A stretch of 64,000 nt of DNA, from IMG/VR virus record IMGVR_UViG_3300042473_001265, positions 62,001-126,000 of that record; one strand, given 5' to 3'. The DNA comes from a virus. Shown here piece by piece: positions 44,583 to 53,767 of this stretch (position 1 is its first letter; each line of letters opens with the position of its first letter). The translations under genes and the position numbers were made by a program. The notes beneath the pieces were generated by a model that was given only the letters and a program-made list of their open reading frames with translations, had not been told where the DNA came from and did no database searches.

Positions 44583-45475
44583 CCGGGGCAGTTTAATGTC
44601 CTACTAGGCAGCTTGCTGTCTAGTGAAGAATAACTGTGGTGACACAGCCAAAGGAGGTATGCCTACATAACTCCGCCAGCAACGGTTCGTTTAGACAAGC
44701 CTGCTCAGACTCGCGAGAGTCCCTTCACTGATAAGACCGGTGGAGGTAACAATGACGCTGGATGTTGTGGAAAGAACGTCGGCTTACCGGCCCGCAAGGG
44801 TAACCGGAGCAGATGGAAAGTAACAGGTGGTGCTGACTTCACAACAAAACCAGTCCAGTTAATTGGCATGAGAAAGGGTAGTGTATCGGTCCGAGGGGTT
44901 GCACCCAAGGGCTTGTATGCAGTTTGAGTGGTCAGTGGAGGCTGTCGAAAGGCGGGGTCAACACAGATCGCAAAAGACGTCTGAGTAGTTCGCAAGACAA
45001 AAGGAACGTGGTGTGTTGTATTGTGTAGAGCAAAACTTTATGCAGCAACTGAGTCAGCACATCGCAGTAGGTTCGTTATAGCTCAATTGGTAGAGCAACT
45101 CCCTGTTAAGGAGTAGGCAGACGGTTCAAATCCATCTAACTATTAAAAAGCAAAGACTGACTCGGTCGTATGTGAAAAGCATCTAATACTTGGCTCGCAA
45201 GAGAATCAAGTCAGACGTAACTCGCAAGGTGAAATCTGTTTATGCAGGAAGTTTCGTAACTGTTTAGCGACAGTGAATGGCTCTAAAGGTCAACGGGATA
45301 GAAAGCGTAGAATAGCATATGGCGACAAGACTACTGCCTGTCTTTAAAAACGGCGATGCTGGCAACAGACCAGGAAACCTGCAAGGGTCTTGGTGGAAGT
45401 CGGAAGAAAGCGGTCTCGCAAGGATCGTAATAATGTCCGAGGTGTTGTTGGGTAAGCATGTATTCTCAGTGCTCC
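44583..45475 (+). ncRNA. Very large structured RNA, GOLLD-like candidate
   Basis: About 0.9 kb without a convincing reading frame but with dense hairpins: CTACTAGGCAGC/GCTGTCTAG, ACTGTG/CACAG, GGAGGTATGCC..., GACTCGCGAGAGTC, GCTTACCGG/CCGGTAACC-type pairs, ACTGCC/GGCAGT-like arms. A tRNA-Asn-like domain is embedded at 45072-45143. GOLLD RNAs (giant ornate RNAs of lake metagenomes and phages) are known to be of this size and to lie among tRNAs; the match is by size, context and style, not by alignment. Confidence 0.5.
45072..45143 (+). tRNA. tRNA-Asn(GTT)-like domain inside the large RNA
   Basis: Canonical D-arm TAGCTC-AATTGGTA-GAGC, anticodon stem ACTCC/GGAGT with loop CTGTTAA, T-arm GACGG-TTCAAAT-CCATC. 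The acceptor has mismatches and no CCA is encoded, so charging is doubtful. A regular tRNA-Asn is at 47554. Confidence 0.6.
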
Positions 45476-49295: not shown

Positions 49296-49369
49296 CTCAG
49301 TATGGTGAAATGGTATCACTCTTGGTTTGGGACCAAGGAGCGTAGGTTCGATTCCTGCTACTGAGACCA
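49296..49369 (+). tRNA. tRNA-Pro(TGG)
   Basis: Acceptor CTCAGTA/TACTGAG, anticodon loop TTTGGGA, CCA encoded. Confidence 0.92.
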
Positions 49370-49390: not shown

Positions 49391-49745
49391 AAGACTGTAT
49401 GAAGTAGACAGAAAAGGATTCAAGACGTGGGTTCGACTCCCACCATCTCCACCTAAGTGTATGAGGTATATTTAGGTGGGGATGACCAGGCTATCGATTG
49501 GGTCACAAGTAAAGAAATGGACAGTCCGGCAATGTAGAAGCCGTTAGGGTCGGAGTATTTCGGCCGTAGACACAAAAACCGTAAATGCAAACGCAAATAC
49601 AGGTGAAGTAACTGTTTCAGGTAAGAACGTCAAGTTCTCTGCTCGTACAGCACAACGCCACTCCTTAGCAGTCTAAACACTGCTTTGAGCAACTATGCTT
49701 AGAAACAGAAAATAGTAAATAGGACCTTCGGGTCCTATTTTTTTG
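49391..49745 (+). ncRNA. ssrA: Circularly permuted (two-piece) tmRNA
   Basis: The acceptor piece comes first: AAGACTGTATGAAGTAGACA..., T-arm GTGGG-TTCGACT-CCCAC and CATCTCC-ACC (49444-49453). A 24-nt spacer follows, then the coding piece from 49478 (GGGGATGACCAGG), whose GGGGATG pairs with CATCTCC to rebuild the acceptor stem; in the precursor the helix extends to 13 bp across the spacer. The resume triplet is GCA at 49587 in the context AAATGCAAACGCAAA; the tag begins ANANTGEVTV, runs 29 residues, ends SLAV and stops with TAA at 49674. CCA is not encoded. Ends at the terminator at 49718. Confidence 0.88.
49718..49745 (+). terminator. Terminator of the tmRNA
   Basis: AATAGGACC-TTCG-GGTCCTATT stem followed by a T-run. 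Confidence 0.9.
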
Positions 49746-49772
49746 ACTTATTTGTAATGCGGCATATATAAT
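49743..49772 (+). promoter_or_regulatory. Promoter of the Ala/Lys-rich protein (TTGACT-18-TATAAT)
   Basis: Boxes at 49743 and 49767, beginning in the T-run of the tmRNA terminator. Confidence 0.8.
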
Positions 49773-49834
49773 GTTGTACAACAATCCGTTGTACTGTTAG
49801 ATATATATATTTTTTTAAACAAAAGGACAATTTC

Positions 49835-50077
49835 ATGAAACAACTTATCGCTATTATCGCTGCCGTGGCTGCTGCCACTGCATTTGCCCAGGCTCCTGCT
49901 GCTAAACCAGCTGCACCTTCTAATATTACACCTGCTGCTGCACCTGCGGCTGCACCTGCTGCTGCTGCGCCAGCTGCCAAGAAAGAAGAAGCCAAGCCAG
50001 CTGCTAAACCAGCTGCCAAGAAAGAAGAAGCCAAGCCAGCTGCTAAAAAAGAAGAAGCTAAACCAGCTGCCAAGTAA
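49835..50077 (+). CDS. Secreted Ala/Pro/Lys repeat protein
   Basis: 80 residues. Signal peptide MKQLIAIIAAVAAATAFA, then APAAKPAA and three or four near-exact repeats of KKEEAKPAAK. Burkholderiales genomes encode many such PAKKEEAK-type exported proteins, which supports the host guess. Function unknown, perhaps periplasmic spacer or surface charge. AAAGGA precedes the ATG. Confidence 0.8.
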   Translation: MKQLIAIIAAVAAATAFAQAPAAKPAAPSNITPAAAPAAAPAAAAPAAKKEEAKPAAKPAAKKEEAKPAAKKEEAKPAAK

Positions 50078-50095
50078 AACTGTTGCAGTTCGCTA

Positions 50096-50124
50096 AACCC
50101 GCCCCGGGCGGGTTTTCTTTTGGG
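50096..50124 (+). terminator. Rho-independent terminator
   Basis: AACCCGCC/GGCGGGTT stem then TTCTTTT. Confidence 0.85.
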
Positions 50125-50248
50125 TGTCTGCCGGTCAATTTAGCCAGAAAACCAGTGTAAACTGCTTGTTTTCTAAGTTGTTGCAGTGACCACCAATAAA
50201 TACTTGAGTGGCAATTCTGCCCGTTCATACTTACAAAGGAAATACACA

Positions 50249-51088
50249 ATGAAAAAAGCATTAGTCGCAGTGGCAATTTTGGCTGCATTAGGTACAGCTC
50301 ACGCCCAGTTCAAAATTGGCGGAAAACTTGCATACGACATCAAGCGGGCCGACAACTCATCGACCACCATGTCCCCAATGGACACCAGCAACATCAACTT
50401 CACTGCTACGGAATCCATCGGCAATGGCATCACTGTCAAGGCCTATGCAGAAATTCAACCTGGTGGAAACGGCACTGCCACCGAAGGCAACGACCTGTAT
50501 ATTGATGTTGCAACTCGTGTTGGTTCAGTCAAGGTCGGTCAAGTTGAATCCGCCAATGGTATCATTGGTCTAGGCCTAGGCGATGCACCAGTTATGGGCC
50601 AAGACGGAGTCGTATTGGGCGCCAAATCCAATGTGCAATCCGTCAGCTATACAACACCCACAGTGTCGGGAATTGCATTCAAAGTCAGCAACACTCGAGC
50701 CATCAACAACACCGGCACAAACAAAAACTCATTTGGTGCAACTTACACAGTTGGCCCAATCAGCAGTGCTGTTGACTACAACCAAACTACCGAGCGTGTT
50801 CGTGCCAGCGCCAAAGCCACTGTAAAAGGCATCACAGTTGGTGCGGGTGTCAGCCGCAATGAACTCAATGTTGCCGACTCCTATGTGGTAGGTGCTTCCT
50901 ACACCATGGGTGCTGTGACTGTGGGTGCTGCATATTCCGACGGCAATGGCACTGCCAAAGAAGTTGGTGCTGAGTATGCATTGAGCAAGAGAACTTCGGT
51001 TCAATTGGCAGTGGCACAAGTTAACAGCAATACAACTGCTGCCAACAACACTGACACATATCGTGTTCGTGTATCACACTCGTTCTAA
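50249..51088 (+). CDS. Outer-membrane porin (Burkholderiales type)
   Basis: 279 residues from the ATG at 50249 with AAAGGAAA upstream. Signal peptide MKKALVAVAILAALGTAHAQ, then amphipathic strands (FKIGGKLAYDIKRAD, INFTATESIGNGITVKAYAEIQ, VGSVKVGQVESANGIIGLGLG) ending in YRVRVSHSF with the C-terminal Phe required by BAM. The scheme matches Gram-negative porins, slightly short (about 330-380 is usual). ATAAATA at 50193 may be a late promoter. Its own terminator follows. A phage-encoded porin is rare; it could change host permeability or mask a receptor. Confidence 0.85.
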   Translation: MKKALVAVAILAALGTAHAQFKIGGKLAYDIKRADNSSTTMSPMDTSNINFTATESIGNGITVKAYAEIQPGGNGTATEGNDLYIDVATRVGSVKVGQVESANGIIGLGLGDAPVMGQDGVVLGAKSNVQSVSYTTPTVSGIAFKVSNTRAINNTGTNKNSFGATYTVGPISSAVDYNQTTERVRASAKATVKGITVGAGVSRNELNVADSYVVGASYTMGAVTVGAAYSDGNGTAKEVGAEYALSKRTSVQLAVAQVNSNTTAANNTDTYRVRVSHSF

Positions 51089-51105
51089 TCCAACACGATT
51101 GGACA

Positions 51106-51134
51106 CAAAGGCTACTTCGGTAGCCTTTTTTTTT
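51106..51134 (+). terminator. Terminator of the porin gene
   Basis: AAAGGCTAC-TTCG-GTAGCCTTT then T-run; very similar to the terminator at 42501. Confidence 0.9.
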
Positions 51135-51210
51135 GGCCGTTTGTGTGCAGTCGATATAAATAACATCAGCAACGCCAACAATCTGTTGACGTCGGATCAC
51201 CAATTGACGC

Positions 51211-51240
51211 TTGACATAGCAATGTCTTTACTGTTATAAT
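51211..51240 (+). promoter_or_regulatory. Promoter of the transport operon (TTGACA-18-TATAAT)
   Basis: Boxes at 51211 and 51235. A TATAAATAA late-type box lies at 51154. GACAT-AGCA-ATGTC in the spacer is an inverted repeat and a possible operator. Confidence 0.75.
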
Positions 51241-51308
51241 ATAACAGAACGCCTACCGTAAGTAGAGTTCTTCTACAAGCAATCTCCCTGAATACAGTAA
51301 AACTGCCA

Positions 51309-52445
51309 ATGGTTTATTACAACATCAATGGAATAAGATTTGACAATCCGTTCACGGCGTTCCTGCACGGGTCCATACACGATCCACATACATTTCCAAA
51401 ATTTGATTTTTACGACCATGAGTTTTCTGCCATTGATTGGACCATAGAACCAGCAGAAAGTTTTCAAACACTGTGTGACCGACGAGCACATCAACTGAGA
51501 AACAGATACGACAAACTCATACTGGCGTTCAGCGGCGGCACTGACTCGGTCACTATATACAACACTTTTTTACGCAACAACATACACATAGACGAGATCT
51601 ATATTTGTTACGCACGATCCGGCGTCGACAATTTGATGCCAGAAAAAGCAGTGACCTGGCTGTTGGAAAATCATCCAGACAAGACTACAAAAATCAATAT
51701 AAAATCAATTCATACTCACGACGATATTCTTGGATATGAACAACAACTGTCGTCGGAAGATTACATGGTAAACGATGGAAAAAATCTCAGACATCAGTTG
51801 ATCAAATACTGCCGGCCTGTGCTGCATCAATACAATTTTGATCAATCCTACCACAGTTATAACTATTGCACCATTGTGGGGTTTGAAAAACCGCATTTGA
51901 TTCAGCGCAAAGACGGCTATTACTTTGGATTTTTAGACCGCGTATTTTCTGGGTCATTGAACCGCAGCGACCTAGAGTTCTTTTTTATATCTCCTGACCT
52001 GCCAGCCTTGCATGCCAAACAGTGTCACATGATGTTGAACTATTGTTTACGAACCAACACCACCTTGGCAGAATTAGAAAAACCAGAAAATTACTATTTA
52101 AAATGTGCAGTGCAAGGCCGAGACCCAGATGTGATACCGGGGATCAGTCAAATGGAAAAACAGATCAATGCCGAGCACGACAGTATAGTAAAATCAATTG
52201 ATTTTTCAAAAGAAATCTCTGATCTGGTATTGCACCAATTATCAAAAAATTCCACAAGTCTGCCATTGCTGTCGGGACTACAGCGTCAATCTTCGGCTGT
52301 GAAAAAATACATCGATGGCTGGCATATTTTGCAAACGGACCAGACTCTAAAATCTTACATGGTGCGGATGGGGCTGTTGTCTTCAGATCGACAATCAGTG
52401 CAGTCATATCATGCAGTCAGTTCGCGGGAGTACAAAATTAGATGA
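51309..52445 (+). CDS. PP-loop ATP pyrophosphatase-like protein
   Basis: 378 residues. YDKLILAFSGGTDSVTIYNTFL is the SGG-x-D-S PP-loop shared by asparagine synthetase, QueC, TilS and PAPS reductase. The rest (HQYNFDQSYHSYNYCTIVGFEKPHLI..) resembles the Asn-synthetase-like branch found in phages more than QueC; the QueC zinc Cys quartet is not visible. It adenylates a carboxylate or amide substrate. It overlaps TctA by 4 nt, so it is in one operon with the transporter. Confidence 0.65.
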   Translation: MVYYNINGIRFDNPFTAFLHGSIHDPHTFPKFDFYDHEFSAIDWTIEPAESFQTLCDRRAHQLRNRYDKLILAFSGGTDSVTIYNTFLRNNIHIDEIYICYARSGVDNLMPEKAVTWLLENHPDKTTKINIKSIHTHDDILGYEQQLSSEDYMVNDGKNLRHQLIKYCRPVLHQYNFDQSYHSYNYCTIVGFEKPHLIQRKDGYYFGFLDRVFSGSLNRSDLEFFFISPDLPALHAKQCHMMLNYCLRTNTTLAELEKPENYYLKCAVQGRDPDVIPGISQMEKQINAEHDSIVKSIDFSKEISDLVLHQLSKNSTSLPLLSGLQRQSSAVKKYIDGWHILQTDQTLKSYMVRMGLLSSDRQSVQSYHAVSSREYKIR

Positions 52446-53767
52446 TAGAGTTACTGTATCTATTACCAATCATACTGCTTGGCATAGCCAGCGGCATTGT
52501 GATCGGCGTATTTCCCGGAGTAGGACCTGCATCAGGAATAATGATCTTGTATCCTGTTTTGCTCGGGTTGCCGGTGGTGGATTTGTTTGTATTTTATTCA
52601 GTGATGATGTCTTCAGTGCAGTACTACAGCAGCATACCATCTATTGTGTATGGCATAGCCGGAGAAATCACCAGTGTGCCAGCGGTGCAGTATGGCCATG
52701 ATGAATTCAGGCAAGGGCGTGGTGCAGAACTACTAAGCGCCACGGCCACATCCAGTCTGATAGCATCGGTTGTGGGTGTTGTGATTTTTTATGCAGCCAC
52801 ACAGTACATTGATTTTATGAAGTACTTTATCAACAACACTCCAAGATTGATATTGTTAACTGTGCTTGTTGTGTTGATCAGTGTGGCCAGCAAACAAAAG
52901 ATCCTGGCACTGACATTTGCAATTATAGGACTGACGATTGGACACATTGGGTACGATGTTTTGAGGCGCGAACATTTTTTATCCGCAGCAGATTTTCTGC
53001 CCAGTGGCATTCCGTTTGTACCGGTGTTCATTGGATTTCTAATGTTGCCAGAGTTATTTCATCATGCAAGGCATACCTTATCCGGTGTTGACATCAATTC
53101 GAATGAGTTTGGTATTCGTACTCGGCTAGCAAATTTATTAAAATTTCCACCGGTGCTGTCATCCCTGCGTGGATCCGTGATAGGTGCTGTGATGGGCCTG
53201 GTGCCTATGATAGGAACATCTGTGTCGTCAATGGTTGCAGCAGTGGTGGAAAAAAAGATCAACAACAACAATCAACGAATAGTGGTTTCTGCAGAGGCTG
53301 CCAACAATTCAGCTGCCATCACTGTGTTGATACCATTGATATTTCTAGCATTGCCTATTATTCCATCCGAAGCAGTGATCATGGCCTTGGCCGAACGCAG
53401 CGGATTTGGAATCAACAACAGTTTCAATTTGATAGCATCACTGGCTGGACCATTGATTGTGATACTGTTACTGGTCAATGTGGTCAATTGGTTGGTTGCC
53501 GGAATGTTTTATCAAAGTATGATTTCCCTCTACATTCGGTTGAACAAGATAATTTATCCCATCCTGATTGCAGTAAGCGTGGCAGTGTGTGTTTCAGAAG
53601 GAATGGCCAACCACCAACTGGGTCTGTATCTGTTGTTGACTGCCATGTCGGTATGTGTTGGGGTTTTTGTCAAAGAGTTTTCTGTTCGCGTCGCACTGAT
53701 ATTTGGCATGCTTTTGTCAACGTCAGTATCATCGGAAATTTTCCGATTTGTATTATTCAACTTTTAA
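52442..53767 (+). CDS. TctA-family tricarboxylate transporter membrane subunit
   Basis: 441 residues, about ten hydrophobic segments. GIASGIVIGVFPGVGPASGIMILYPVLLGL is the TctA N-terminal signature, and ITSVPAVQYGHDEFRQGRGAELLSATATSSLIASVVG its second conserved block; the mirrored copy appears near residue 250 (SVIGAVMGLVPMIGTSVSSMVA). Bacterial TctA has about 500 residues. It would import a carboxylate with the binding protein at 53777; no small TctB subunit is seen. Confidence 0.82.
   Translation: MIELLYLLPIILLGIASGIVIGVFPGVGPASGIMILYPVLLGLPVVDLFVFYSVMMSSVQYYSSIPSIVYGIAGEITSVPAVQYGHDEFRQGRGAELLSATATSSLIASVVGVVIFYAATQYIDFMKYFINNTPRLILLTVLVVLISVASKQKILALTFAIIGLTIGHIGYDVLRREHFLSAADFLPSGIPFVPVFIGFLMLPELFHHARHTLSGVDINSNEFGIRTRLANLLKFPPVLSSLRGSVIGAVMGLVPMIGTSVSSMVAAVVEKKINNNNQRIVVSAEAANNSAAITVLIPLIFLALPIIPSEAVIMALAERSGFGINNSFNLIASLAGPLIVILLLVNVVNWLVAGMFYQSMISLYIRLNKIIYPILIAVSVAVCVSEGMANHQLGLYLLLTAMSVCVGVFVKEFSVRVALIFGMLLSTSVSSEIFRFVLFNF

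Follow-up and report, generated by a model that had tools for sequence, protein, structure and literature searches.

The tmRNA locus and its parts

The window, the whole 64,000-nt stretch analysed here, spans bases 62001-126000 within a virus record of 340,172 bases (G000, a phage of ~340 kb). Its source is a giant lake-type phage, with a DNA polymerase nearest to those of Sinorhizobium phage Phosso, Agrobacterium phage Atu_ph07 and Rak2/CBB-like jumbo phages. ARAGORN places 30 tRNA genes at 39.0-49.4 kb of the window, and a two-piece tmRNA gene follows the last of them:

49296-49369, + strand: tRNA-Pro(TGG), final tRNA of the array, adjoining the tmRNA on its upstream side (ARAGORN, Rfam)
49393-49453, + strand: tRNA-like 3′ piece, first in the gene (RF04321 alignment and acceptor analysis of relatives)
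49427-49443, + strand: T-arm GTGGG-TTCGACT-CCCAC, part of the 3′ piece
49444-49450, + strand: acceptor 3′ strand CATCTCC, then A-CC; CCA is encoded without its last A
49454-49477, + strand: intervening segment of 24 nt between the acceptor strands, expected to be removed
49478-49484, + strand: acceptor 5′ strand GGGGATG, beginning the coding piece; 7/7 pairs with 49444-49450, including a G3.U70 wobble
49527-49565, + strand: two neighbouring hairpins 5′ of the resume codon (CGGC/GCCG, 49527-49543; GGTCGGA/TTCGGCC, 49548-49565; RNAalifold, 16 relatives)
49587-49676, + strand: tag frame, from resume codon GCA (49587) through ANANTGEVTVSGKNVKFSARTAQRHSLAV to stop TAA (ARAGORN; RF04321 end; ~90 viral contigs)
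49608-49646, + strand: conserved tag core VTVSGKNVKFSAR (dN/dS 0.24-0.32, versus at least 1 in head and tail)
49624-49638, + strand: possible RNA hairpin AGAAC-GUCAA-GUUCU within the core (82-100% of distinct sequences preserve the pairs, mostly through invariant bases or G-U)
49717-49740, + strand: intrinsic terminator, ending the tRNA/tmRNA array

The permuted-tmRNA model RF04321 (tmRNA_permuted) matches positions 49393-49676 over its full length (model positions 1-213), scoring 89.4 bits against a cut-off (GA) of 47, with a window-wide E of 7e-16. ARAGORN's independent prediction is likewise a permuted tmRNA, with a 29-aa tag. These results bear out a preliminary description of this DNA, which had proposed a phage-borne, circularly permuted tmRNA inside a tRNA array, its two halves rebuilding a 7-bp acceptor stem, and had suggested a covariance-model run for permuted forms as a check. 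Among three clade models, beta_tmRNA (RF01850) scores best, yet its 67.4 bits fall below the cut-off of 84; two relatives exceed that cut-off (L287 and L290, at 118 and 110 bits). Because the whole piece folds with z = -4.8, and pairing and tag are kept in ~90 relatives, the match to a tmRNA is far beyond chance. On the sequence, the locus is almost certainly a genuine permuted tmRNA gene. Two-piece tmRNAs in phages are not new, with 53 such phages reported (PMC9004378).

The same array contains a GOLLD RNA (RF02032, 197 bits) at window positions 45008-45472, with a tRNA-Asn gene within it; phage tRNAs with a GOLLD RNA around or close to them are already known. Immediately 3′ of the tmRNA are genes for a Gram-negative porin (PF13609, window 50186-51088) and a TctA transporter (PF01970, window 52442-53767), and other phages of our set carry small outer-membrane-like genes at this position (clusters C27 and C31). 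The window also encodes a secreted-looking, Ala/Lys/Pro-rich protein of ~80 aa with repeats (49835-50077) and a subtilase-family protease (PF00082, 23096-25309). A search for the host through the downstream porin returned no plasmid match; we infer a Burkholderiales host solely from the beta-like RNA and the Porin_4 and TctA genes.

Conservation of the RNA among relatives

The tag core of this phage defines a family, here called F1, with 90 genes, 77 of which could be parsed into two acceptor strands. All 77 have a fully paired (7/7) acceptor stem, in 12 compensated versions, and all share G1-C72, G2-C71 and G3.U70. Our parser demanded pairing and slightly favored G1 and G2 in its scoring, but position 3 earned nothing, so the invariance of G3.U70, the identity pair of alanyl-tRNA synthetase (AlaRS), is an unforced result. 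The segment between the two pieces is hypervariable and spans 24-160 nt in relatives, a lack of conservation and a variation in length that fit its removal. Two-sided changes among 16 relatives support the two hairpins 5′ of the resume codon (RNAalifold). More broadly, the resume region and the pseudoknot-region helices, on which the preliminary description had staked its assignment, are conserved in related phages.

Phage tmRNAs are under-reported in existing annotation: ARAGORN misses 37 of the 90 F1 genes, whereas RF04321 is passed by all 13 relatives checked, including 10 of 10 checked genes that ARAGORN had missed. Many phage tmRNAs (L122, L127, L161, L171 and others) have a T-loop without the usual UUC but with intact stems, and such genes are often missed by ARAGORN; the non-canonical loops seen include TGCAACT, TGCGAAT, GGCAGTG and AGAATTC.

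The F1 core occurs together with 12 different acceptor stems and with either of two unrelated types of PK1. Comparing an RNA-body tree with the tag families gives at least six changes between F1 and other tags, from a short alignment too weak to separate gain from swap. One locus (L301, tmRNA at 381-744, - strand) has the F1 gene neighbourhood with a canonical ANDEQFALAA tag, reflecting either the ancestral state or a tag exchange in nature.

Long tags fall into conserved phage families

We scanned 2.9 million viral contigs with a DNA pattern for V-T-V-[ST]-G-K-x-x-K-F. It matched 89 viral stretches, all in tag context, with a resume codon on the 5′ side and [LF]AV or similar plus a stop on the 3′ side. 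The architecture head-VTVSGKNVKFSAR-tail-[LF]AV thus recurs in ~90 viral contigs; in this phage the tag ends ...SLAV, a small hydrophobic, degron-type terminus before TAA. Across 85,000 bacterial and archaeal species, scanned for the F1 core only, the pattern gave four chance matches and no tmRNA.

To avoid selecting on the tag, we also scanned with the RNA segment upstream of it (GATGACYGTNAATCAAGCAAA...TAAATGCA), which returned at least 152 phage tmRNAs. Among the matches listed, tag length is bimodal, with at least 72 tags of 10-14 aa, at least 80 of 23-35 aa and none of 15-22 aa; the proportion of short and long tags should not be taken as a census, because the 152 are a minimum and some loci were already known from the core scan. 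The short tags listed are mostly host-like ANDxxxALAA, and sister phages combine the same upstream and resume sequences with short ANDERFALAA-type tags. The preliminary description had singled out the 29 residues as atypical. The length is indeed unusual, but the notable feature is the phage-specific, selected core.

The long tags among the matches listed form a few conserved families: F1, F2 (ANANTFEYFQVDFDISA-MNDEQFAIAA), F3 (ANADTFDFSAMSFTGNTVRGA-ANESRFALAA) and one more (TTEAEVMTFVWDLP-ANESRYALAA). F1 tags mostly end in AV, while F2 and F3 mostly retain an AA end. Since an insert precedes a canonical degron in several long families, the tags look modular. An independent sample based on the T-arm indicates that long tags also occur in other phage tmRNA types (3 of 40 distinct permuted tags and 9 of 26 distinct standard ones).

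We considered whether the tag was copied from another phage protein, and a six-frame search of the 340-kb record gave nothing above shuffled controls. Comparison with solved structures produced weak matches to short repeat proteins. None of the matching stretches passed alone, and we judged these matches meaningless. There was no tblastn match to the tag in 50,697 cultured-phage records.

Selection on the tag core

Using the Nei-Gojobori method on the tag-blind set of 29-aa tags, we obtained a dN/dS of 0.32 over the 13-codon core (codons 8-20) and of 0.24 over VTVSGKNVKF, whereas the head reached 4.7 and the tail 1.2; pS in the core was ~0.25-0.35. By these codon comparisons, the core is under purifying selection, and the head and tail are not. 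Core positions outside the putative RNA stem (V1, T2, V3, S4, G5 and V8) still have a dN/dS of 0.22 (pS 0.35), which argues that the peptide itself is constrained.

Phage Clp proteins and the ClpX tag-contact loop

SmpB (PF01668) is absent from this phage and from 32 related records, so host SmpB would be needed. The phage also lacks its own Lon (PF05362), and SspB and Lon were both rejected as phage-encoded tag readers because both are absent from it. It does encode a set of Clp proteins, a kind of gene already known in phages (positions are those of the record):

329873-330463: canonical ClpP, with catalytic Ser/His/Asp aligned
327656-328231: second, divergent ClpP
304216-305424: ClpX (NCBIfam equivalog, 509 bits, cut-off 359)
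49656-51929: ClpA-like protein (TIGR02639, 784 bits, below the cut-off of 993)

Two further F1 phages (G008 and G009) have the same Clp set, an association with F1 tags for which genome size is a confounder and many F1 records are fragments. Phage ClpX also accompanies short ALAA-type tags (G048, G058, G059, G060, G065 and isolate Phosso), so a phage Clp system does not require a long tag. Many T4-like phages with short tags (cluster C30, e.g. L296) have a divergent ClpP-like gene ~1-2 kb downstream of the tmRNA.

In E. coli ClpX, H230 and T199 touch the ssrA tag at its end, and KM rises strongly in H230A (PMC7652416). The ClpX of this phage retains its four zinc cysteines, GYVG and the IGF loop, and its RKH loop reads RKV; the loop is RKT in G008 and RKQ in G009. 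H230 is lost in 41 of 81 phage ClpX sequences. It is replaced (V, T, Q or S) in all four AV-tag phages with ClpX (this phage, G008, G009 and G052) and kept as RKH in 3 of 3 records G059, G060 and G065, all with short tags. Strict co-evolution of loop and tag fitted the first three phages and was broken by G048, G058 and Phosso, where an altered H230 accompanies ALAA tags. The pattern in these sequences is compatible with ClpX and tag changing together; a match between them is not established.

Proposed function of the long tag

The tRNA-like halves, the acceptor stem with G3.U70, the conserved helices, the resume codon, the open tag and the terminator together point to a functional two-piece tmRNA. 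The reading we favor, held with about even confidence, is that the RNA works in trans-translation with SmpB taken from the host, and that its modular tag would combine a C-terminal degron with an inner, phage-specific, putative recognition element. Host tRNA-processing enzymes would trim the precursor, host AlaRS would charge it, and host SmpB would be loaded onto it. The 29-aa tag would then be added to proteins on ribosomes stalled during infection, while mRNAs are being cut. The preliminary description had proposed retagging of host proteins or ribosome rescue when host mRNA is destroyed; either role may apply, and both would depend on SmpB from the host. The tag itself would have a variable head, the selected phage-specific core and, at the C-terminus, the small hydrophobic degron [LF]AV. 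The core most probably serves as an additional recognition element, read by whichever protease disposes of tagged proteins; this would plausibly be ClpX/ClpA with ClpP from the phage itself, or else another host protease. By analogy, long mollicute tags, which are read by Lon rather than ClpXP, offer a precedent for such an element.

Alternatively, this could be an ordinary host-type tmRNA whose long tag is tolerated length drift, with host ClpXP reading the C-terminal residues only and the core having no role. The C-terminus does remain [LF]A[VA]-like while head and tail drift freely, and common ancestry within one jumbo-phage lineage accounts for much of the similarity. We nevertheless consider drift rather unlikely, given the core dN/dS of 0.2-0.3 at a pS of ~0.25-0.35, the lack of 15-22-aa tags in the bimodal lengths of the matches listed, and the persistence of the core while the acceptor stem took 12 forms and PK1 two unrelated ones.

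The tag might also re-address quality control in jumbo phages, with the core and AV end forming a phage-specific degron read preferentially by phage ClpX/ClpA and ClpP, so that disposal is separate from the host's. We regard this as unlikely.

The core could instead be conserved for RNA structure, the added in-frame hairpin helping folding, resumption or stability and the peptide being a by-product. The AGAAC/GUUCU stem is retained, with all N/G/S replacements pairing via G-U, and core lysines use AAG almost exclusively (124:6, or 95%) compared with 11:75 (13%) for other tag lysines. F2 and F3 reading frames also fold better than synonymous recodings (mean z of -1.6 and -1.2), although F1 reaches only -0.4. 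In consensus folding, two-sided changes are nearly absent from F1 and no fold emerges for the F2 reading frame, and the amino-acid constraint outside the stem is strong. Part of the core's conservation may be at the RNA level, although RNA structure as its exclusive explanation is quite improbable. Since consensus folding is backed by few compensatory changes in F1 and by none in F2, we rank the peptide above the RNA and treat the core as doubly constrained.

A tag serving evasion or sorting seems more doubtful again: an AV rather than AA end would make a poor host ClpXP substrate, freeing ribosomes while the product is spared or sent elsewhere. Most F1 tags do end in AV, and E. coli ClpXP depends most on the final two alanines, a change to either of which raises KM (PMC7652416). 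However, ClpXP still degrades AAV-type endings, more slowly (PMC9382460), and the long families F2 and F3 mostly retain AA. Finally, a decaying or non-functional acquired gene, as the sub-threshold beta_tmRNA score and the odd T-loops of some relatives might suggest, is scarcely credible beside compensatory acceptor changes, an invariant G3.U70 and purifying selection on the tag core.

Relation to known systems

RF04321 merges the alpha, beta and cyano permuted types (PMC11915505). The phage gene shares its gene order, T-arm, acceptor, D-region and resume codon, and differs in being phage-borne and in its 29-aa rather than the usual 10-aa tag. From the betaproteobacterial tmRNA (RF01850, ANDxxxALAA tags) it differs by the inserted core, the AV terminus and its score below cut-off. 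Methylophilales phage Melnitz and about 50 other phages with two-piece tmRNAs are likewise aquatic carriers of a permuted gene, although the Melnitz tmRNA is alpha-type, unlike the one described here (PMC9004378). The jumbo phages Sinorhizobium Phosso and AP-J-162, Agrobacterium Atu_ph07, Bacillus G and the Lak phages encode ClpX/ClpP, as here; Phosso has a permuted tmRNA too, but with a short, canonical tag (ANDNVSTKVALAA). Genes for tmRNA and SmpB are known from huge phages (PMC7162821). Among long ssrA tags of mollicutes, mf-ssrA of Mesoplasma florum is read by Lon (PMC9382460). Such tags, longer and with a changed protease assignment, serve as a working analogue with no sequence kinship claimed; they are cellular and used because ClpXP is missing, whereas this phage lacks Lon but has ClpX/ClpP.

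What is new here is the conserved long phage tag, phage two-piece tmRNAs as such being known; a literature text search (VTVSGK with tmRNA) found no report of a conserved long tag core or of such families. Short tags, conserved for host ClpXP, are the norm among tmRNAs. The existence of several long, selected, phage-only tag families, most with a module before the degron, suggests that phages have repeatedly rewritten the fate of the rescued protein. The purpose of phage tmRNAs is an old question, which these long tags make directly testable.
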